Part shown: positions 20,842 to 33,366 of the stretch, in pieces | Layout of the letters: the number at the start of each line of letters is the position of its first letter | How positions within the stretch are numbered: the first letter of the stretch is position 1 | Origin: Elainella sp. Prado103 | GTDB taxonomy: Bacteria; Cyanobacteriota; Cyanobacteriia; Elainellales; Elainellaceae | Length of the DNA: 56,367 nt | Assembly: GCA_025454395.1 (NCBI GenBank) | Contig: JALOOM010000056.1 | Location: 1-56,367, forward strand | Direction of reading: 5' to 3' | Notes under the pieces: model-generated | Database searches by the model: none | Seen by the model: the letters and a program-made list of their open reading frames with translations, nothing else | Told to the model about the DNA's origin: nothing | Translations under genes and position numbers: made by a program

Positions 20842-22554
20842 ATGTGTGAAGCCCATAGATATTGGATGCATCTGCGGCTAGAGGGATCGGGACGACTGCG
20901 AACAGTGGAGATCGCCCCAGCAAGGCAGTTTTTCCAAGCCATCTTTCCAGATTGGGATCGCTCCGATCGAGCCGATATCCAAATTCAACGCCAACTGGTG
21001 CAGATCATGCGATCCTCACCCGAATCAGCAGTCGCGGATCCTGCCTTGGGATGGAGGGCCGCGACATTGGCAGAAGCCTGTCTACGTTGTTTCGTTTCCA
21101 GCCAAATTCCTCAAGTTTGCTACAGCTTAGCGCAACAGTTTGGAGCCCGCGGCCACTTTCGGCAGATCCACCTGTTGCCCTACGTGATGGAAGATGCCGA
21201 TCCACTCCAGTCGTTTGATCCACCAGAATTTCCAGCCGATCGATCCCGCCCCCTCGCGGTCACCATCGTCAAAAAATTTGATCCCGATCGCAGTAACCTC
21301 AGTACCTGGACAAAGCTGCTGACGCGCCAGCACAAAGAACTCTCAAGTGCCTTAAAGGATATTTATGGCATTTACATTAGTAGTGATTGGGCAGTGCTAA
21401 ACCAAACTCGTCCTGAACAGGCGCAGCGCTTGTTGGCGCGGGTGTTATCAACCGCCGAACTGACGATCGCAATTCGCGTGTTGAAAAGTTACCATCAGGT
21501 TTACTTACCGGAATATCGCCTCTGGAAAATCCGGAATGTTGGCAAATCCTGCCCCGATCCCACCCCTCAACAATTAGAACAAATGCTGTGCCTCCTGCCC
21601 CCCGATCGGCTGGTAGCTAGCCCAGAGGCCGTGCTGCGCGTGTTGAAGCAGTTGGCTCAGAAGTTGCGCCCCCCTGCTCCTAGTGATCTGGTTTCCATTG
21701 ATGATCCCATCTACCGCCCCGCTAGCCGCATCGATCGCCCGGATCCCGCATCCAGAGATGAGGATGAAGAGCCAGAGCACAATTTTTTAGCAGCCTATCG
21801 CCAAACTGCGGAAGCGGTTTTACAGCAGGTCGTCAATCAGGTGATTGCCAGCCGAGCAGCCAGCTTGAAGCGTCGCAAAAGCAAGGGGACGCTACCCCAA
21901 GATCAGGCTTACTTACAGGCCATGATTTTATTCCATCGCGATCGGCTCTCCATGGCGGAAATTGCCCCCCAAGTGGAGCGACAAGAACAATATCAGATCA
22001 GCCGCTTACTTGCCTTGGGTGATCTAAAAGCAGATGTGCATCGGGAGTGGTTGCTGCAAATGATGCAGGGCTTACCGCAATTGCTGCGATCGACTTTGGA
22101 AGCAGAACAACTCCCCAAACTGTCTTGGCTAGAACAACCCTTGGAGCAGATTTTGGCTGCCATCTGGCCGAAGGGCACGAGTGACCCAATTCTCACCTTC
22201 CAGGCGGGGCTAAAAGAGGTGACTCTGCACTCTAGCCTCCGCTCAGACCCGGCAGCCTTGCCAGAAAAAGGGGTGCAAAAACCCGTGCAAAAACCCGTGC
22301 AAAAACCTGGAAATTCCCTGTCTGTGCCTGCGATTCCCTGCCTCTTGCCGATCGATCGCCAGCTCTATCAATTTTTGGGGGCTTTAGAGGGTTTGATTGC
22401 TCCAGTGATCGCTGAATACACCACCGAAAATTACAACCCAGAGCGCACCAAACCCCCCAAACATCCCCTTGACCCAAATGCCACTCCGCCTCTCTCTAAA
22501 GGCCTGTTGACGACCTGCATTTGCCGATATCTTGAAGACTTAGGAGTTCTGTGA
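20842..22554 (+). CDS. Sigma-70-like protein, first gene of CHAT-CHASE2 operon
   Basis: A 570-residue soluble protein. Residues 146-190 (FDPDRSNLSTWTKLLTRQ through SSDWAVLNQT) and the helix-turn-helix-like segment around 352-400 (AMILFHRDRLSMAEIAPQ) resemble the divergent sigma-70-like proteins that cyanobacteria encode next to DUF1822 and CHASE2 genes; this matches regions 2 and 4 only loosely. The ATG at 20842 has a strong AAAGGAGGGG site. A 12-base unit repeated three times at 22273-22308 gives VQKPVQKPVQKP. The stop overlaps the next gene by 4 bases. Whether it directs transcription is not established. Confidence 0.65.
   Translation: MCEAHRYWMHLRLEGSGRLRTVEIAPARQFFQAIFPDWDRSDRADIQIQRQLVQIMRSSPESAVADPALGWRAATLAEACLRCFVSSQIPQVCYSLAQQFGARGHFRQIHLLPYVMEDADPLQSFDPPEFPADRSRPLAVTIVKKFDPDRSNLSTWTKLLTRQHKELSSALKDIYGIYISSDWAVLNQTRPEQAQRLLARVLSTAELTIAIRVLKSYHQVYLPEYRLWKIRNVGKSCPDPTPQQLEQMLCLLPPDRLVASPEAVLRVLKQLAQKLRPPAPSDLVSIDDPIYRPASRIDRPDPASRDEDEEPEHNFLAAYRQTAEAVLQQVVNQVIASRAASLKRRKSKGTLPQDQAYLQAMILFHRDRLSMAEIAPQVERQEQYQISRLLALGDLKADVHREWLLQMMQGLPQLLRSTLEAEQLPKLSWLEQPLEQILAAIWPKGTSDPILTFQAGLKEVTLHSSLRSDPAALPEKGVQKPVQKPVQKPGNSLSVPAIPCLLPIDRQLYQFLGALEGLIAPVIAEYTTENYNPERTKPPKHPLDPNATPPLSKGLLTTCICRYLEDLGVL
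22273..22308. repeat. Three 12-bp in-frame repeats
   Basis: GTGCAAAAACCC is repeated three times (one end mismatch) inside the sigma-like gene, lengthening a Pro/Lys linker without breaking the frame. Confidence 0.9.
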
Positions 22555-24008
22555 ATATGATGCCCTCAACTGACGATCAACCTACAGCATACTTACTCCC
22601 AGCAGAAAGTATTGCCCTGACCTCAGAGCAAGTGGCTTGGGCCCTGACCCTGAGCCAAGCTGCCCCAGAGCTACAAGAGCAATGGCAATGTTATCTGAGT
22701 GGTCTAGCCCTGTTAGGATTTCAAACCTGGTTGCAAGCCCGATCGCCCGAATTATCTCTGCGCAGTCCCTGGCTACTGCCCCGCTCAACTCAGCCTCAGC
22801 GACTGCGACCCGAACCGGAACCAGCCTCAGGCTTAGTAGAGGACTCGAATCGATCGAAGATGGCTCGACCCACTTCTGCCAGACTGCCCTTGAGTCAACA
22901 GGTGAGCCAGTTGATGATTGGAGACACGAAGCTCTATCTGATTCCGATCGGCTATGTCGATGATCCCCTGGTTAGCTTGCCATCAACGGTACCGACCACT
23001 TGGTCGCCCGATTTGTATGTCTTGGTGGAAGTGTTAGAAGAAATTTCAGAAGTCAGAATAATCTCTTACTTGCCGCAATCTGAAGTGGATTGGGATCATG
23101 CCGACCTACAGCGGTTGGAACCCGTATTAGACCAGCCCATGTTAAACCAACCGGCGTTAGACCAACCATCCCAACAAGAACGACTCACGGATAGTCCGGA
23201 TGAGTCTTTGCTCAGTCATTTTGATCGCTCTCAACCTAATTCTTCCCCATCCCATCCCTCCCAACCTGATGAGCTGCTAATTCCCACCTATCAGTTTGTA
23301 GAACACCCCGATCGATTACTGTTCCAACTGCGATATGCCCAAACCTTTGGACTGACCAGTCAATCCACCGAAGCGGGTGCAGCCACAACCACCGAACCAA
23401 TGCCAGTTCATGCCGATGCCGATGCCGATGCCCACCTAGCTACAATGCCCGCTCCTCTACCGCTCGTGAACCCAGCCACCTCTGCGACAAAACCGATCGT
23501 GGTCAATGTGGCGCGGTGGTTTGAACATCAAGTCGATCGAATCACAGAAGAACTGGCATGGATGCTACTGCCACCCCTGGATTTAAGTGGCTCTCTCCTG
23601 TCGAGCCAAACCGATGGGTTATCAGAAGATTTGGAAGATGTGTTGCAGACCTTACGCTATGAGCAGCAGATTGCAGTCCCTCCAGAAGCCCGATCGGCCT
23701 ATCGAGATCTGACTCTAGAAGCAGCGGAGTTGCGGTTGTATGTGGTGACTTGGCGGTTACCGGCAACCTCAGAATGGTCGTTGCTCGTGGTGTTAGGGGC
23801 GCAGCCGGGTCGCCTGTTATCACCTGGAATTAAGCTGCTGATTGCCGATCAGCACGAACCATTGATTGAATTAGTCCTGAACCAAGAACCTTACCTCTAT
23901 GCCCAAGTCATCGGACAACTCAATGAACAGTTTCAATTGTCGATCGCCCTACCGAATGGAGCCTGCTTGACCTTACCGCCACTGGTGTTAGATGCTGAGT
24001 TGAGTTAA
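22551..24008 (+). CDS. DUF1822 family protein
   Basis: A 485-residue protein of the cyanobacterial DUF1822 family. An N-terminal helical part (about 20-60) is followed by a low-complexity Pro/Ser/Gln/Ala linker (185-320, with micro-repeats such as ADADADA and LDQPMLNQPALDQP). A conserved C-terminal part runs 325-485 (WFEHQVDRITEELAWMLLPP and ELRLYVVTWRL). No catalytic motif or membrane segment is seen. Start is the GTG at 22551 or the ATG at 22557/22560; the former overlaps the previous stop, indicating translational coupling. Its role is unknown; constant linkage to a sigma-like gene and a CHAT-CHASE2 gene points to a shared pathway. Confidence 0.82.
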   Translation: MNMMPSTDDQPTAYLLPAESIALTSEQVAWALTLSQAAPELQEQWQCYLSGLALLGFQTWLQARSPELSLRSPWLLPRSTQPQRLRPEPEPASGLVEDSNRSKMARPTSARLPLSQQVSQLMIGDTKLYLIPIGYVDDPLVSLPSTVPTTWSPDLYVLVEVLEEISEVRIISYLPQSEVDWDHADLQRLEPVLDQPMLNQPALDQPSQQERLTDSPDESLLSHFDRSQPNSSPSHPSQPDELLIPTYQFVEHPDRLLFQLRYAQTFGLTSQSTEAGAATTTEPMPVHADADADAHLATMPAPLPLVNPATSATKPIVVNVARWFEHQVDRITEELAWMLLPPLDLSGSLLSSQTDGLSEDLEDVLQTLRYEQQIAVPPEARSAYRDLTLEAAELRLYVVTWRLPATSEWSLLVVLGAQPGRLLSPGIKLLIADQHEPLIELVLNQEPYLYAQVIGQLNEQFQLSIALPNGACLTLPPLVLDAELS

Positions 24009-24097
24009 ACCGTTCTGTTCCAGTTGTATCGAGTTTTTTATAACAGGGTGAGTGCCATCATGATTGTCCGTCCAGGTATTGGTTTAGGTATTTGTTT

Positions 24098-24130
24098 CAG
24101 ATATTTGTTCAGATATTTGTTCAGATATTC
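24098..24130. repeat. Tandem CAGATATTTGTT units
   Basis: Two perfect 12-base copies (24098-24109, 24110-24121) and a partial third copy in the leader between the DUF1822 and CHAT-CHASE2 genes. Confidence 0.85.
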
Positions 24131-24190
24131 AGACATTCACTCTGCCTGGATTGAGTGAGTTGTTCAGTTGGCTGATCGATCGGTTACTTC

Positions 24191-24292
24191 ATCAACGCTC
24201 AACCAGCTAATCCATCAACGTTCAATTATTCGCTCGATCGGTGATTTAATCAACGTTCAATTATTCGTCGATCAATCATTTAATCAACGCTC
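24191..24292. repeat. Four spaced ATCAACG(C/T)TC motifs upstream of the CHAT gene
   Basis: Copies lie at 24191-24200, 24214-24223, 24249-24258 and 24283-24292. The middle two extend to the perfect 19-mer ATCAACGTTCAATTATTCG. Unlike the other tandem repeats these are separated by 13-25 bases, as protein-binding iterons would be, and lie 25-127 bases before the start codon. The 309-base gap 24009-24317 otherwise holds nothing recognisable. Confidence 0.7.
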
Positions 24293-24317
24293 GATCGATC
24301 GTGTGATCAAATATACC

Positions 24318-26891
24318 ATGACAGTTGCGTTTCGTCTTAAAGTTACCCAATTTGATAGCCTTTGCCAGTTTGAGTTGACCTGGGGACAGTCTCAATCCCT
24401 GACTGCTCGGCTTCAGTATCCGCCTCACTTAGAGGTGCTCTACCAAGAGTGGCAGCGCGCTTATCTCAATTTCTACAAAAGCCGCTCCTTGCTAGCTGAA
24501 CCGATCGAGCCAACATTAGATTCAACGGTTGAGCCCTCCCCCCTGCGAGCCAGAGTAGTCAACAGCGGCGGTCTCACCACTCAAGTAGACTGGAAAGCAC
24601 GGCTGGATGATGCAGAAAAATTGCTCTTACGTAACTTTCAAAACTGGCTTTGGCAAGGAGAACTACGGGACATTAGCCGGGTGATTGCGGCTGCCAGTCA
24701 GGCGTTAGGGGAAACGGTGGATCACAAAATTGATGTGCTGCTTTCCTGCGATCCGATCCATTTAGTGCGTCTTCCCTGGGAAACCTGGGAGATCACTGAT
24801 AATCTGGAAGCCTTTGGCAAGATTCGCATCGTTCGATCGCCCGTGAATATTCGAGCTGCTGCCCCGCCAGTTCATCGTCCGGATTGGAAACGGGCCCGCA
24901 TTCTAGCCATTTGTTGTGATGATGCAGGGCTTCAGTTGCAGCAAGAACGAGCCATTCTCAAATCTTTAGAACCCTTGGTGCAAGTCGAGTTTGTCGGTTG
25001 GTCGATCGGTCAACACCAAAGGGCTGAGCAGGTACAACAATCTATTCTCCAGGCAATTACCGATCCTCAGGGTTGGGATATTTTATTTTTTGCTGGTCAC
25101 AGCGATGAAACGGTCATGACCGGCGGACGATTGGCCATCGCCCCAGGATCTTCAATGACGATCGAGGAGTTGAAAGCTGCCCTCACCCAGGCCAAAGATC
25201 GAGGTCTACAGCTTGCCATGTTTAACTCTTGTCGAGGTCTACGCATTGCTGAAGCCTTGATGGATCTGGGTTTAAATCAGGTGTTGGTGATGCGGGAACG
25301 GATTCATAACCAGGTTGCCCAGGAATTCTTGGTGCAATTTGCCCGCAGTTTAGCCAGCTTTAAAGATACCCAGGATGCCGTGCGAGATGCCACCCAATGG
25401 TTGAAAGAAAACCATAATCAGCGCAAATATCCCTCGGCCTATCTCGTCCCTTCGTTATTTCGTCGGCCAGGATCACCTCCGATCCGACTCTCTCAACCGG
25501 ACTGGCGACAATGGCTAACTCGTTTGCTACCCCAGAGACGCTATGAATTGGTCACTATTTTGCTGTTATCGGCTGTGAGTTTACTGCCGTCCCTCCAATT
25601 GTTTTTGCTGGATCAGCGCATTCTCGTGCAAGCTCGCTATCGAGAACTCACCCAGCAGATCGATCGCTCCCGTCCCGCCTCCATGGCGTTGATCCAAATC
25701 GATGATGCATCAATTCAGCGTGATCGAGTAGAAATTGGACAGATTAACCCGATGTCACAGAAGTATATGGCTCGGTTAATCGATCGGTTAGTTGCCGCTA
25801 AAGTTAAGGTGATTGGCTTAGACTATCTACTCGATCATCCCGATCCTAACCAGAAATTGTTGGCTAATAGTATTCGCCAGGGAACTGATCAAGGTGTGCG
25901 GTTTGTTTTTGGCAAAATTTCCACCAACCAGGGTGGCTGGATCCAAACTCCCCCCCAAGTTGCCGATCCTCGCAATCTTCATGCTCAGGCGATCGGCTCT
26001 ATGGGCACTGACTTTCACATGCCGCAGATCTGGCCATCCGAACCTCTAGTGATTTCCTACTGGTTAGCTCGATTGCATCAGGTTTGTGTTGAACCCCATT
26101 TTGCAACCCCCCAACTCAAAAGTTTGGCACCCGCATTCTGTGCTTCAGGCAGAACGGCTGAGCAAGAACAACTCGCAAAGTCAGAGATGGCTCAGGAAAC
26201 TCCTCAGCTCTACTATTCCGCTGTGAGTTCTCTGGCCTATAGCTTGGCAGGTCAAATTTGGTTTCATCCGATCATTGATTTTTCGATTCCGGCTGAGCAG
26301 GTTTATACTGCCATTCCTGCCTGGAAACTTCTCTATGAACCCAACGCTCCAGACCTGAAACGCCTGTCTCAACAAACTGTTTTGATCGCCGCCGGAGGCT
26401 ATGAAACTGCCGGAATTACGCCTGGCGATCCCTTAGAAAAATTTCCGCCGCCTGCCGCTGTTCGCTATTGGTATGAGCAGGCAGATGATCACTTTGGGAA
26501 TCGAGAGATGACCGGCGGCGAACATCTCAGTTATTTATTTGAGAACATTATGCAGCGGCGCTTTGTCATGCCAGTCCCTGATCTACTGATGGTGTGGCTA
26601 GCTGCAATCGGGGCGAAACTGGTGTTGCTTGGGATGGGGCGATCGAAGTCGTTGGAAACTCATGGGCATCCTTCTGTGCGTGCCAGGCTTCAGACCGTTA
26701 GCTGGTCAGGTTCCCCTATTCAGGGGCATCTACCCCCTCGCAAGTTGCTGATTTTATCCGGTGGTACCGCATTTTATAGTGTGCTGAGCCTCCAACTGTA
26801 TCTTTCTAGTGCCGCGATTCTGTTGCCGATCGGGCTGCCTACCGTCACATTTTGGATCTATCTGATACCCAATCTGCTGAAAAAACAGTGA
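24318..26891 (+). CDS. CHAT protease with CHASE2 sensor and membrane anchor
   Basis: An 857-residue membrane protein. A cytoplasmic caspase-like CHAT domain occupies about 140-380. Its catalytic pair is seen as His261 in LFFAGHSDE and Cys305 in MFNSCRG, so proteolytic activity is plausible. A transmembrane helix (411-431) leads into an extracytoplasmic CHASE2 sensor (about 440-740, starting ALIQIDDASIQ), closed by hydrophobic segments at 756-773 and across 809-857. The ATG at 24318 (MTVAFRLK) is preferred; an open frame upstream is repeat-derived. Third gene of the sigma-like/DUF1822 set. The usual partner of CHASE2, a kinase or cyclase, is replaced by a protease at the N-terminus. Confidence 0.85.
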   Translation: MTVAFRLKVTQFDSLCQFELTWGQSQSLTARLQYPPHLEVLYQEWQRAYLNFYKSRSLLAEPIEPTLDSTVEPSPLRARVVNSGGLTTQVDWKARLDDAEKLLLRNFQNWLWQGELRDISRVIAAASQALGETVDHKIDVLLSCDPIHLVRLPWETWEITDNLEAFGKIRIVRSPVNIRAAAPPVHRPDWKRARILAICCDDAGLQLQQERAILKSLEPLVQVEFVGWSIGQHQRAEQVQQSILQAITDPQGWDILFFAGHSDETVMTGGRLAIAPGSSMTIEELKAALTQAKDRGLQLAMFNSCRGLRIAEALMDLGLNQVLVMRERIHNQVAQEFLVQFARSLASFKDTQDAVRDATQWLKENHNQRKYPSAYLVPSLFRRPGSPPIRLSQPDWRQWLTRLLPQRRYELVTILLLSAVSLLPSLQLFLLDQRILVQARYRELTQQIDRSRPASMALIQIDDASIQRDRVEIGQINPMSQKYMARLIDRLVAAKVKVIGLDYLLDHPDPNQKLLANSIRQGTDQGVRFVFGKISTNQGGWIQTPPQVADPRNLHAQAIGSMGTDFHMPQIWPSEPLVISYWLARLHQVCVEPHFATPQLKSLAPAFCASGRTAEQEQLAKSEMAQETPQLYYSAVSSLAYSLAGQIWFHPIIDFSIPAEQVYTAIPAWKLLYEPNAPDLKRLSQQTVLIAAGGYETAGITPGDPLEKFPPPAAVRYWYEQADDHFGNREMTGGEHLSYLFENIMQRRFVMPVPDLLMVWLAAIGAKLVLLGMGRSKSLETHGHPSVRARLQTVSWSGSPIQGHLPPRKLLILSGGTAFYSVLSLQLYLSSAAILLPIGLPTVTFWIYLIPNLLKKQ

Positions 26892-26940
26892 AAATAGCGC
26901 TAGGGCTTGCATCGTGACTGCTGGATCGATCGATGTGATC

Positions 26941-27019
26941 CTGTTATGGCTGTTATGGCTTATGACTATAGAAGGTAACAAAGGTAACAGAAGGCAATAG
27001 AAGGCAACAGAAGGCACCC
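26941..27019. repeat. Short tandem repeats in operon spacer
   Basis: CTGTTATGGC is duplicated at 26941-26960, then AAGGTAAC and AGAAGGCAA units recur several times up to the ribosome binding site of the next gene. Confidence 0.75.
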
Positions 27020-27032
27020 AGAGGAGGCAACG

Positions 27033-27626
27033 ATGGGCCACCATCTTAAGAAAAAACTCAATCAGCTCATTAGCATCGTCGAGCACCTGGCAATGCAAGC
27101 ACATCAGATCGGTGGCCAGATGCAGCAGATCAATGAACGGCTCGATCGCACTTGCAACACCCTAGAGCAGCTTGCCAGCAGCATACCGGCAAACCCTGCC
27201 GATCCGGATCCTCTCACCTCTAATGCATCGACTCATTGGGATTTGCAACTGAACCAGCTCGCTGCCGCCGTACAGTCCCTCAACTATCGAGTCAGTGAAC
27301 TAGAACAGCAACTTCTCAGCGCTAAAGTTCCTTTGTCTGCGGATTCAATCTCTCAGGGCTCGGCTTCTGAGGAGACAATGGCTGAGGACTCAACTGAGAT
27401 GGCCGAACCGGGAATCACGGCAACGGCAACCCCCGATACTGCCCCAACAGCCACAGCCACAGCCACTCCCACCATTGTGACATCGGAGATATCGGTATCC
27501 GAGATCTCCGTGGCAATTTCCAGCCCTTATTCAGGCGTTGATCCCGATTGGGAAGAAGACGAAATTGAAGACGAACCGGACGAAATTCTCTGGGATTTTT
27601 TGGAACCAGAGCAGCGATTGGGTTGA
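27033..27626 (+). CDS. Coiled-coil protein with acidic tail, unknown function
   Basis: A 197-residue soluble protein with a good GAGGAGG ribosome binding site. Residues 3-55 form a basic then heptad-patterned helix (LKKKLNQLISIVEHLAM, QMQQINERLDRTCNTLEQL). A second heptad helix runs about 70-98 (LNQLAAAVQSLNYRVSELEQQ). A Thr/Ala/Glu-rich disordered region follows, and an acidic end EEDEIEDEPDEILWDFLEPE. It follows the CHAT-CHASE2 gene by 141 bases. It could be a partner or substrate of the protease; this is conjecture from position only. No domain recognised. Confidence 0.65.
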   Translation: MGHHLKKKLNQLISIVEHLAMQAHQIGGQMQQINERLDRTCNTLEQLASSIPANPADPDPLTSNASTHWDLQLNQLAAAVQSLNYRVSELEQQLLSAKVPLSADSISQGSASEETMAEDSTEMAEPGITATATPDTAPTATATATPTIVTSEISVSEISVAISSPYSGVDPDWEEDEIEDEPDEILWDFLEPEQRLG

Positions 27627-27757
27627 TTCCCCTTGGGTTGTAGCTCTTGTTCCCAAGTGCCACCCTCCGGAAGATAGGATCTGATGTCTCCCTTCAGTGG
27701 GTTTAACCGCCAGTTGCAAGTTGCTAGTTTGCAAGAGTGCATTTGGGAGAATTCTTT

Positions 27758-28234
27758 ATGTCTACAATTACGACCAACTCTGCTCCAGAACTGGTTCGTG
27801 CTTTTCAAGCTTTAGAAGTCGATCAACAATTGGCTTTGTTCTATTTCATCTACAAAGAGATGGGTAATTCGGTGACTCCGGCAGCTCCAGCAGCAAGCAC
27901 CGTTTCTCCAGAAATTGCTGAAGGTTTGTTTAATCAAATTAAGGAACTGTCCCATGAAGAGCAACTTCAACTCCAGCGGGAGCTAATCAATCGCCAAGAT
28001 AATCAACTGACCCGGCAGTACGGTGCCCTGAGTGATACCACTAAACTATTAGTCTGGTACTACCTGGCTCAAGGTATGGATAATGGTACGATCATACCGA
28101 TGCCTGCTGACTATCAATTAGTAGAAGCAGCAGAACAACTTATGAGCCAAATCAAATCCCTAGATTTTGAACAACAAATTACCTTATTCCGGGATATTGT
28201 TGCACCTATGGGCGTAGATTCAACGCAAGGCTAA
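27758..28234 (+). CDS. hcp: Helical carotenoid protein (OCP N-terminal domain homolog)
   Basis: A 158-residue all-helical protein equal to the N-terminal half of orange carotenoid protein. HCPs bind a ketocarotenoid and quench singlet oxygen or phycobilisome excitation. Residues that line the carotenoid tunnel or the domain interface in OCP are matched: Tyr32 in FIYKEMG (OCP Tyr44), Trp100 in LLVWYYLAQGMDNG (OCP Trp110) and Arg145 in LFRDIV (OCP Arg155). The ATG at 27758 has GGGAGA 7 bases upstream. No C-terminal-domain homolog or full OCP lies in the window. It is 131 bases after the coiled-coil gene, so it may or may not share its transcript. Confidence 0.88.
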   Translation: MSTITTNSAPELVRAFQALEVDQQLALFYFIYKEMGNSVTPAAPAASTVSPEIAEGLFNQIKELSHEEQLQLQRELINRQDNQLTRQYGALSDTTKLLVWYYLAQGMDNGTIIPMPADYQLVEAAEQLMSQIKSLDFEQQITLFRDIVAPMGVDSTQG

Positions 28235-31962: not shown

Positions 31963-32586
31963 TCAGAAAGTATGCTGTAGACGATCGAAATCGGCTGGTG
32001 TGTTACAGTTAACCAGCATGGTCGGATCGGCTAAGGGCAGCTCTTGAACCATTTGAGTGTCAAGCCAGCGTTGGAAGGATCGGCCGCCTCGTTGGCTAAA
32101 GTCAATCAGGGAAGATAAAGCCTGCTGGCGATAAAAGCCACAGAGCGGTTCCCACCATCCTTGAGGATTGCGAGGTAAAAGAGCAACGGTTTCTGGAGCT
32201 GCTTCAGGAAGGTGAGCAATCCAGTCTTGCAATACTTCTGCTTGGAGTCGAGGCAGATCGCAGGCTAGCAATAAGCTCCAATCACTCTGAATGATCTTTA
32301 AACCTTGAATGAAGCCCATCATTGGGCCTTGGGGTTCGCCTTCCAAGAGAGATTCAGATATCCATTGGATGGGGAATTCTAAATCAGGAAACAACGATCG
32401 ATAAAGCTCACTCCAAGCAGAAACTACACAAACCTGCTCCGTACATCGACTTGCCACCTGACAGACACGCAATAACAAGGGCACGCCTTCAAAGGGTAGC
32501 AAGGCTTTATCTTGCCCCATACGCGAACTGAGACCACCTGCTAAGACAATGGCATGAACGGATGGATGATTTAAGCTCAGGTGCAT
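31963..32586 (-). CDS. mobA: Molybdenum cofactor guanylyltransferase
   Basis: A 207-residue nucleotidyltransferase that transfers GMP to molybdopterin, giving the MGD cofactor used by enzymes such as nitrate reductase. The nucleotide-binding N-terminus IVLAGGLSSRMGQDKALLP is exact for the family, and LLACDLPRL near residue 107 carries the metal-binding Asp. Length is normal. It is divergent from def. No other molybdopterin genes are in the window. Confidence 0.9.
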   Translation of the reverse strand: MHLSLNHPSVHAIVLAGGLSSRMGQDKALLPFEGVPLLLRVCQVASRCTEQVCVVSAWSELYRSLFPDLEFPIQWISESLLEGEPQGPMMGFIQGLKIIQSDWSLLLACDLPRLQAEVLQDWIAHLPEAAPETVALLPRNPQGWWEPLCGFYRQQALSSLIDFSQRGGRSFQRWLDTQMVQELPLADPTMLVNCNTPADFDRLQHTF

Positions 32587-32677
32587 TTTCCTTAATTCCT
32601 CAGAATTAGAACCTCTAAGCTATAATTCAGCGCGGATTCGCAAGTCAGCTTTGGGCGATCGGCGATCGATTTCGGGT

Positions 32678-32823: not shown

Positions 32824-33366
32824 ATGTCGGAACAATTAGTGATCGCTCAGCTAGGCGATCCAGTTTTACGGCAAGTGGCTCGACCCATCGATAACATTCA
32901 AGATGACACTATTCAGCGCTTGATTGATGATCTCCTGGAAATATTGATCGCCTCGAATGGGGTTGGCATCGCGGCTCCCCAGGTTGGGGTTGCTTATCAA
33001 TTGTTAATTGTGGCTTCCCGTCCCAATCTGCGCTATCCCCATGCCCCGAAGATGGAGCCGACCGCAATGATTAACCCCCAAATTCTCAGCCACTCTGGAG
33101 AAGTGGTAGAAGATTGGGAAGGGTGTTTGAGTGTTCCGGGCATTCGAGGCTTAGTCCCACGTTATCGCCTGATCGAAATTGCCTACACAAACCGCCAAGG
33201 ACAATTGGTAGAGCAACGACTTGAGGACTTTGTGGCACGCATTTTTCAGCATGAATATGACCACCTGAAAGGAATGGTTTTTCTCGATCGACTCAAAAAT
33301 GTCAGAAACATTATTACCGATCAGGAATATCTGAGCCGGATGGTGCCGACTCAAGTTTTGGCCTAG
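32824..33366 (+). CDS. def: Peptide deformylase
   Basis: A 180-residue metalloenzyme removing the formyl group from new proteins. The three deformylase motifs are intact: GVGIAAPQVG near residue 48, EGCLSVPG near 99 (metal-binding Cys) and QHEYDHLKG near 142 (HEXXH metal site). An AGGAGG site sits 6-7 bases before the ATG. Monocistronic, divergent from mobA and convergent with the TSUP gene. Confidence 0.95.
   Translation: MSEQLVIAQLGDPVLRQVARPIDNIQDDTIQRLIDDLLEILIASNGVGIAAPQVGVAYQLLIVASRPNLRYPHAPKMEPTAMINPQILSHSGEVVEDWEGCLSVPGIRGLVPRYRLIEIAYTNRQGQLVEQRLEDFVARIFQHEYDHLKGMVFLDRLKNVRNIITDQEYLSRMVPTQVLA

Follow-up and report, generated by a model that had tools for sequence, protein, structure and literature searches.

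How could a caspase-like protease that is fused to a membrane sensor be connected with a sigma factor? This question is raised by a row of genes in a stretch of 56,367 nucleotides from the cyanobacterium Elainella sp. Prado103 (assembly GCA_025454395.1, contig JALOOM010000056.1); the whole stretch is hereafter called the window. Four open reading frames (ORFs) encode, in this order, a sigma-70-like protein (gene 1), a DUF1822 protein, a protein in which a CHAT protease domain is joined to a CHASE2 sensor domain, and a coiled-coil protein (gene 4); their coordinates are shown in Table 1. The original prediction, made from the sequence alone, was that CHASE2 activates CHAT upon a signal, and that CHAT then cleaves the DUF1822 protein or the coiled-coil protein and so frees the sigma-like factor. 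Our analysis leads us to think, with a probability of about one half, that the operon is a transmembrane signalling unit that frees a dedicated sigma factor by proteolysis, in the manner of Csx29, Csx30 and CASP-sigma but presumably without CRISPR, although no search aimed at CRISPR arrays or Cas proteins was made. The cleavage, the inhibition of the sigma factor and the use of the promoter are the parts that we infer.

The four genes were confirmed to lie in a row on the plus strand, and the DUF1822 gene overlaps the sigma-like gene by 4 bases (letters GTGA), as had been claimed. In comparison with Pfam, the second protein matched DUF1822 (expectation value, E, 4e-20), and the third matched CHAT (E 1.8e-11) and CHASE2 (E 4e-16). 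These matches and the codons for His261 and Cys305 agree with the claim that an intact catalytic dyad is fused to CHASE2. The ORF of the third gene begins at a TTG (24168), and the alignment with its paralogue C42 begins at Met residue 51; thus the ATG at 24318 is the likely start. In the 857-residue numbering from that ATG, a simple hydropathy scan gave hydrophobic segments at 412-430, 756-774 and 832-850. That is, one segment lies after CHAT and two lie near the C-terminus, positions from which CHAT would be cytoplasmic and CHASE2 extracytoplasmic. In keeping with the original prediction, the dyad is nearly invariant among relatives: it was kept in 103 of the 105 CHAT proteins of at least 600 residues, and the remaining two have gaps there. 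The region N-terminal to CHAT is also conserved (e.g. W95, W160, P203 and W204 in the 907-residue numbering). Pfam matches of the window protein at E up to 1 included CHAT and not Peptidase_C14, the orthocaspase/metacaspase family; no TPR match was seen in the Pfam scan, and a CHAT-CHASE2 profile found no relevant match among PDB sequences.

To describe the relatives of the operon we used two samples. The first consists of 80 loci, all cyanobacterial, which are the best of 157 ranked by similarity to the window sigma gene. The second was picked by DUF1822 and holds 84 ORFs, part of the DUF1822 matches listed, with 79 upstream genes, two of which (L079, 968 residues, and L088, 922 residues) are not sigma genes and are presumably the two CHAT matches seen among these upstream genes. 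Downstream in this second sample, 60 of the 73 first genes and 46 of the 58 genes at the position behind CHAT were scanned. In the first sample, DUF1822 was next after the sigma gene in 71 of the 76 loci with enough DNA, and one of the next three ORFs was a CHAT gene in 49 of the 66 testable loci; the sigma-DUF1822 overlap was exactly 4 bases in 16 of 72 loci. Downstream of DUF1822 in the second sample, CHAT was found in 44, CHASE2 in 26 and Peripla_BP_6 in 7 of the 60 genes. The window's genome itself carries DUF1822 at seven loci, of which two are truncated where a contig ends, and four loci other than that of the window keep the full order of sigma, DUF1822 and CHAT-CHASE2. We observed at L024:736-3375 in this genome a DUF1822-linked CHAT gene in which an apparent periplasmic-binding-protein-like sensor half replaces CHASE2, the similarity extending over the CHAT part.

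We then compared the divergence of the partners with that obtained when partners were swapped within genomes, a restriction that preserves species relatedness. For DUF1822 and CHAT (48 loci) the correlation r was 0.755 versus 0.317 +/- 0.092 for the swaps, and for the upstream gene and DUF1822 (73 loci) it was 0.837 versus 0.302 +/- 0.073; in both cases none of 2000 swaps reached the observed value. These results supersede a smaller test of 21 loci and 24 distinct swaps, in which 87, 76 and 45 of 1000 reached the observed values. This comparison of sequences shows that the gene sets diverge as units. Their linkage is thus not random; random linkage would have counted against the original prediction.

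The gene usually found behind CHAT in these relatives appears to be DUF928-like. A DUF928-type gene lies behind three of the four full loci in the window's genome (Pfam 4e-50 at C41; BLAST 9e-22 and 8e-17), and the gene behind C42 has weak similarity of this type (E 0.011 at best) with no Pfam match. A profile made from these four genes was the best match for 43 ORFs downstream of sigma genes in the 80 loci, and Pfam DUF928 was found in 17 of the 46 genes behind CHAT in the second sample. The Pfam model failed to recognise three DUF928-like genes tested (L020, L059 and L138).

Neither Pfam, with its models of Sigma70 region 2 and region 4, nor NCBIfam matched gene 1 at E up to 1. Its sigma identity therefore had to come from profile and fold evidence. 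Among the 79 genes upstream of DUF1822, Sigma70_r4_2 was found in 28 and Sigma70_r2 in 8, and a profile grown from gene 1 and four relatives recruited 48. When the window-type family was aligned by hhalign with 19 more canonical upstream genes, the probability was 98.4% (E 1e-14, 347 columns), and this canonical group matched PDB sigma factors (1l0o_C, 5.7e-8); the profile of gene 1 itself had no relevant match among PDB sequences. The AlphaFold2 model of gene 1 had a mean predicted local distance difference test (pLDDT) value of 75. In Foldseek, the first 11 rows were all RNA polymerase entries (best E 0.013, none below 0.001), as were all 50 rows shown by VIA (best Z 8.5, root-mean-square deviation (rmsd) 18.9 over 191 residues), in which residues 15-175 aligned with 6k4y_F at Z 8.0 and rmsd 4.2 over 115 residues. 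The matched chains (F, G, L, X and similar) are presumably sigma subunits. VIA itself warns that Z values of such size can be frequent for helical proteins, so the fold is only supportive and the profile evidence carries the case. Taken together, descent of gene 1 from sigma factors is supported by the profiles and by a modest-scoring fold, and the predicted resemblance of the first protein to sigma factors was found at these modest scores. The fold alignment over residues 14-409 spans the whole primary sigma core, including the stretch between sigma2 and sigma4, so the published label of an extracytoplasmic function (ECF) sigma factor is doubtful and may not fit the window-type subfamily.

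In the model of the DUF1822 protein (mean pLDDT 71), an N-terminal alpha+beta part is followed by a C-terminal immunoglobulin (Ig)-like beta sandwich at about 380-485, and low-confidence stretches include 191-231, 271-318 and 330-356. The sandwich aligned with assorted Ig-like domains, the best Foldseek row being a SoxYZ chain (E 3.2e-3) and the best VIA match CBM56 (Z 7.7). Since the sandwich is a common fold, no function was drawn from these matches. A DUF1822 profile found no relevant match among PDB sequences and no Csx30 at E up to 10; the general Pfam and NCBIfam scans of the window proteins matched DUF1822 to no known anti-sigma family, and the hydropathy scan gave no clear membrane segment in it.

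The linker before the sandwich contains an Arg in 45 of 46 aligned window-type DUF1822 proteins (one of the 46, L149, is a truncated reading), and the lone exception is the window protein, which has Leu350. This Arg is mostly preceded by Leu, Met or Phe and mostly followed by Ser, and the loop behind it varies in length. Arg-Ser or Arg-Gly was found at most 10 residues from this column in 128 of 152 DUF1822 proteins, whereas random windows from the same 152 proteins gave 12.3 on average and 23 at most. Of four DUF1822 proteins from the same genus, two have Gly-Arg-Ser nearby and two (L275 and L276) have no Arg there. We regard this hydrophobic-Arg-Ser motif as a candidate cut site for CHAT. 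The orthocaspases, another cyanobacterial family of the caspase type, are said to cut after positively charged residues (PMC6426788), and a simulation puts Arg at P1 of an orthocaspase (PMC8283722); an Arg site would therefore suit a caspase-type enzyme.

Upstream of the window-type sigma genes, a pair of short boxes recurs. The dyad TGCA-N15-CAGA was found in 25 of 67 regions, versus 8 for the commonest dyad of control regions, and the pattern TGCAT-N15/16-AGAnnTA lay at most 400 bases upstream of 45 of 78 sigma genes, the mean in shuffled regions being 0.10. The pattern was derived from the same sequences, and tests outside them therefore weigh more. When the sigma genes were clustered at 60% identity, the element was present in 19 of 34 clusters, and the spacer and flanks had 25-30% identity, which is background; at 50% the sigma genes merge, and the count of 4 of 11 groups is uninformative. 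In the second sample, the five upstream regions above 24 bits all belonged to window-type sigma genes, although two of them (L135 and L136) are nearly identical to training sites. The next best region had 9.3 bits, genes outside the family reached up to 6.9, and the shuffled maximum was 10.1. Both the spacing of the two-box element and its place at the sigma operon suggest a promoter that the window-type sigma factor reads. The short-sigma subfamily (L069, L070, L080, L112, L129 and others) has a different upstream element, TAAAGTTTTGTAA-like, and TTTTGTAA occurs in 8 of 27 of these upstream regions (shuffled top 5). This element is perhaps the promoter of that subfamily, the signal being weak.

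In the window itself, the element scored 5.1 with the two-box profile, the 95th percentile of the null being 4.9. The genus has a variant, TGCATAGG-N16-CTAA, which stands with the same spacing before the sigma ortholog in G148 (twice) and G146 (as CTTA); only the first box was found in G147 and none was seen in G149, and the background of the variant is up to six matches per genome. The window proteins are also divergent. The sigma protein departs at 13 of 66 conserved columns among 46 aligned sequences (next highest 5), CHAT-CHASE2 at 8 of 120 (next 7), and DUF1822 at 6 of 40, for which the highest count, 14, belongs to another sequence; because the window was the query in these counts, part of its divergence is expected. 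The Leu at the candidate cut site together with the variant -10-like box indicates that the specificity of the window operon may have drifted. That is, the operon reads as intact but drifted.

The profile also matched sites away from the sigma genes. In 1.35 Mb it gave 102 such matches, and 59 of them lie 20-200 bases before a gene, a zone that holds 5.5% of positions; these matches come from 43 loci. The backwards profile gave 0 matches and permuted profiles 2 to 10. DUF1822 was found in 8 of the 58 genes behind these matches. Among the other 50, TPR_2 was found in 19, CHAT in 10, subtilases (Peptidase_S8) in 7 and the TPS domain in 4. In 100 control ORFs, TPR_2 was found in 8 and CHAT in 7, and Peptidase_S8 was outside the 25 families shown, which means at most 3 of 100. 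An N-terminal hydrophobic segment, defined by a simple rule, was present in 24 of the 50 targets versus 23 of the 100 controls. Targets and controls came from the same loci, and ORFs matching our own sigma, DUF1822, CHAT or DUF928 profiles were excluded; two control ORFs (L138:19646-21329 and L188:265-2433) themselves matched a looser pattern. At 12-22 kb downstream from its sigma operon, the genome G042 has four sites, three scoring about 30 bits and the other 28.6 bits. One of these has no ORF in range; the remaining three stand before ORFs whose N-termini look export-like, two being TPR-like and one caspase-like. We also observed three large genes near the sigma operon (L153:16546-20217, L150:17127-20939 and L173:16624-21248) with the element about 80 bases upstream, the first of which carries a TPS secretion domain.

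A genome-wide regulon was rejected: counted over whole genomes, the pattern stays at background level whether or not DUF1822 is present, and meaning can thus be given only to clusters close to sigma loci. A control with the backwards pattern was not used as proof, because it lay below the pattern in most genomes without DUF1822 too. In the window's genome the loose pattern matches 12 times, including twice in the window, where one match falls within the sigma gene; the genus variant adds two matches. With the profile, the window yielded two matches and no convincing site: one, of 10.2 bits, is followed by no gene, and the other has 8.4 bits. One loose two-box match at 32582-32608 (+), about 215 bases before the ORF 32824-33366, may be due to chance at the background rate.

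DUF1822 is also found without CHAT. In a different class of the phylum, with genomes of about 2 Mb, it forms part of proteins of 929-1294 residues with one hydrophobic segment (Table 1, last row). Three of these proteins were scanned whole; two have DUF1822 and a TonB C-terminal domain (one match just over the cut-off, one just under), and in the third TonB is matched only very weakly. In all 13 complete loci examined, the DUF1822 gene is followed by a small sigma-like gene, and after it comes a large gene, with a zinc ribbon and an AAA NTPase in the two scanned. Since these relatives keep DUF1822 beside sigma, the two look like an older pair with an exchangeable input, and this favours DUF1822 as the partner that would hold sigma.

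Anti-sigma systems of the FecR type are membrane systems in which a transmembrane signal reaches sigma through a regulator, and HetF is a CHAT-type protease that is not known to be encoded with a sigma factor. The HetF/PatU3 system of Anabaena (PMC12288457) is a related known system; the window CHAT protein had 12.1 bits against the HetF model NF045509, the cut-off of which is 1200. In RseA/RpoE, a transmembrane signal is likewise transmitted to sigma via a regulator, by regulated proteolysis (PMC10028731). Unlike the RseA and FecR types, the window DUF1822 has no clear membrane segment, and the sensor sits on the protease itself; the membrane-bearing DUF1822 proteins of the class without CHAT are closer to those types.

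The nearest experimental case is CASP/Craspase, in which Csx29, a TPR-CHAT protease, cleaves Csx30, the inhibitor of CASP-sigma (PMC10028731). Both systems combine a CHAT protease with a sigma factor and with a partner protein that has a flexible cleavage loop. In contrast, Csx29 is activated by Cas7-11-crRNA with target RNA, whereas the window CHAT is bound to the membrane, is fused to CHASE2 and has no TPR, and no sequence relation between Csx30 and DUF1822 was seen in the search of PDB sequences. TPR-CHAT genes do occur near the sigma loci of some relatives, and in L154, L169, L198 and L209 one sits between DUF1822 and CHAT-CHASE2.

The kind of gene set is already described in print. Kaur et al. 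2021 (PMC8195603) predicted neighbourhoods of caspase/CHASE2, ECF-sigma and DUF1822 computationally in one passage, as EACC2-caspase systems. The window likewise has a CHAT with the His/Cys dyad, a CHASE2 sensor and a neighbouring DUF1822, and the variable C-terminal sensor described for these systems has its counterpart in the CHASE2 and Peripla_BP_6 domains of our relatives. Two points differ: the paper calls the sigma ECF, whereas the alignment of our model with primary sigma chains extends from sigma2 through to sigma4, and it describes DUF1822 as a TPR protein, whereas the window DUF1822 has no Pfam TPR match at E up to 1 and its model shows a beta sandwich with no TPR-like repeats. The words 'promoter' and 'DUF928' are absent from the main text of that paper. 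In the literature searched, which was mostly open access and in which the letters of the element were not searched, the promoter-like element, the linker motif, the DUF928 link, the target set and the variant without CHAT were not found. We therefore regard the promoter-like element, the targets, the linker motif and the variant without CHAT as additions. A further one is the evidence from profiles and fold on the descent of gene 1.

From these results, the mechanism can be considered as follows. CHASE2 outside the membrane would sense a signal and activate the cytoplasmic CHAT domain. CHAT would then cut the flexible linker that joins the N-terminal part of DUF1822 to the Ig-like domain, in most relatives at the hydrophobic-Arg-Ser motif. 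DUF1822 would normally hold or inactivate sigma, and its cleavage would free the factor. The freed sigma might transcribe its own operon and nearby genes for TPR, TPR-CHAT, subtilase and TPS-domain surface proteins via TGCAT/AGAnnTA. The order of events in the original prediction is thus strengthened, for DUF1822, by the Arg-Ser motif and the Csx29/Csx30 precedent, and it still has the standing of an inference. Its other proposal, a role in stress or in defence and death, fares less well on the side of defence: PADLOC gave no match to genes 1-3 at E up to 0.01 (two weak matches concerned the coiled coil of gene 4), and the predicted targets look like exported proteases and surface proteins. 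We therefore think defence or death no more probable than an envelope or social programme.

Several points weigh against this mechanism. The linker Arg is missing from the window DUF1822 and from two members of its genus, is kept in DUF1822 proteins with no neighbouring CHAT (e.g. L140 and L164), and could be structural. Csx30 is cut in a flexible loop in which no residue was essential and loop size mattered (PMC10028731), so there is no need to expect conservation at P1. In 17 of the 66 testable sigma loci CHAT is not within the next three ORFs (it lies about 700 bases further in 2, elsewhere on the stretch in 7 and nowhere on it in 8), and CHAT in cis is therefore not obligatory. Duplication of the operon alone would yield co-divergence, which is thus no proof of contact. 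Furthermore, 33 of 78 sigma genes have no two-box pattern, and of the 10 window-type genes in the second sample just 5 have high scores, those of the window, L020, L059, L060 and L131 being low. CHAT is frequent among control ORFs as well as among targets, and the genome-wide pattern is not commoner in genomes with DUF1822 than in some without (G042 16, G091 14; G103 11, G127 11). No published experiment on cleavage, binding or transcription with this gene set was found in the literature searched.

Among other explanations, the first is auto-processing, which is the published proposal for this class: the caspase domain would act on itself upon a signal, with sigma as the later output (Kaur et al. 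2021, PMC8195603), and DUF1822, in our own reading of that proposal, would be a scaffold and not a substrate. The conserved region N-terminal to CHAT would suit it. We consider it unlikely, because it leaves the Arg-Ser motif of the DUF1822 linker unexplained and because, in the CHAT-sigma system studied by experiment, the protease acts on a separate inhibitor (PMC10028731). The two models are compatible with each other.

It is also conceivable that DUF1822 is a positive partner of sigma, as a co-activator or scaffold, and that its cleavage by CHAT turns the response off or tunes it. Linkage and co-divergence are silent on the sign of regulation, and DUF1822 resembles no anti-sigma family in the scans made. 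We find this rather improbable, however, in view of the membrane-anchored DUF1822 proteins beside sigma-like genes, which resemble membrane anti-sigma regulators, and of the CASP-sigma precedent, which is inhibition (PMC10028731). The idea that gene 1 is an adaptor with no sigma function, another regulator binding the promoter-like element, would fit its lack of a Pfam match and the divergence of the window protein at conserved columns (an outlying query by construction), but it is improbable, since the best fold matches over residues 14-409 are sigma chains and the high-scoring upstream regions of the second sample all belong to window-type sigma genes.

If DUF1822 is indeed cut to free sigma, a wider picture can be drawn, which we offer only tentatively. 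The operon may belong to a family of sigma switches, insulated and triggered at the membrane, that is widespread in cyanobacteria and in which CHASE2-CHAT cuts DUF1822 after the conserved Arg, a private TGCAT/AGAnnTA promoter is used, and a second wave of exported proteases is induced (a regulon of TPR-CHAT, subtilases and surface proteins). DUF1822 and sigma would then be the older core, with other membrane inputs in the sister class.

The last gene of the row had been proposed as an operon member and as a substrate of CHAT. Gene 4 has no Pfam family above the cut-off and no paralogue in the genome, and in four other genomes of the genus it stands behind CHAT only in G146; in G148 the contig stops just past CHAT, and a tail-bearing protein lies on a different contig. 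We therefore rejected it as a core component, and its role as a substrate is not supported, as the gene is not conserved with the operon. Its acidic tail EDEPDEILWDFLEP is found again, as an EPDEIL-aromatic-DFL motif at the C-terminus, in small proteins of related genomes whose N-terminal parts differ and whose genes lie apart from the sigma operon (L316:1225-1599, L317:1378-1944, L318:1228-1668 and L319:1291-1851). A conserved docking or stability tail is possible. After gene 4, positions 27737-28234 hold a gene with the N-terminal domain of the orange carotenoid protein (PF09150, E 4e-62), which we take to be of the helical-carotenoid-protein type.

Table 1. Coordinates of the features in the window; the last row gives related loci of another class of the phylum.
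Feature	Position	Strand	Remarks
Promoter-like element TGCATAGG-N16-CTAA	20713..20740	+	Genus variant of TGCAT-N15/16-AGAnnTA
Divergent sigma-70-like factor, 570 aa (gene 1)	20842..22554	+	Fold matches cover residues 14-409; no Pfam match
DUF1822 protein, 485 aa, GTG start	22551..24008	+	Pfam; 4-base overlap with sigma gene
DUF1822 residue 350 codon (Leu), centre of the hydrophobic-Arg-Ser linker motif, candidate CHAT cut site	23598..23600	+	
CHAT-CHASE2 membrane protein, 857 aa from the likely ATG	24318..26891	+	ORF opening at 24168 gives 907 aa
Catalytic His261 codon	25098..25100	+	Numbered from ATG 24318
Catalytic Cys305 codon	25230..25232	+	Numbered from ATG 24318
CHASE2 domain	25557..26615	+	Pfam match, residues 464-816 of the 907-aa ORF
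Coiled-coil protein, acidic tail EDEPDEILWDFLEP (gene 4)	27033..27626	+	Adjoins the operon, outside the conserved core
CHAT-less DUF1822 loci	L061, L063, L064, L217-L226		DUF1822 in N-terminal part, long linker, one membrane segment

If the proposed mechanism is true, receptor-coupled, caspase-like control of sigma would be a mode distinct from two-component systems and from intramembrane cascades of the RseA type, and the operon would be a CRISPR-free counterpart of CASP. The predicted promoter, targets and cut site make a system that is found in print as one computational passage testable, and the role of many cyanobacterial CHAT proteases would become addressable.

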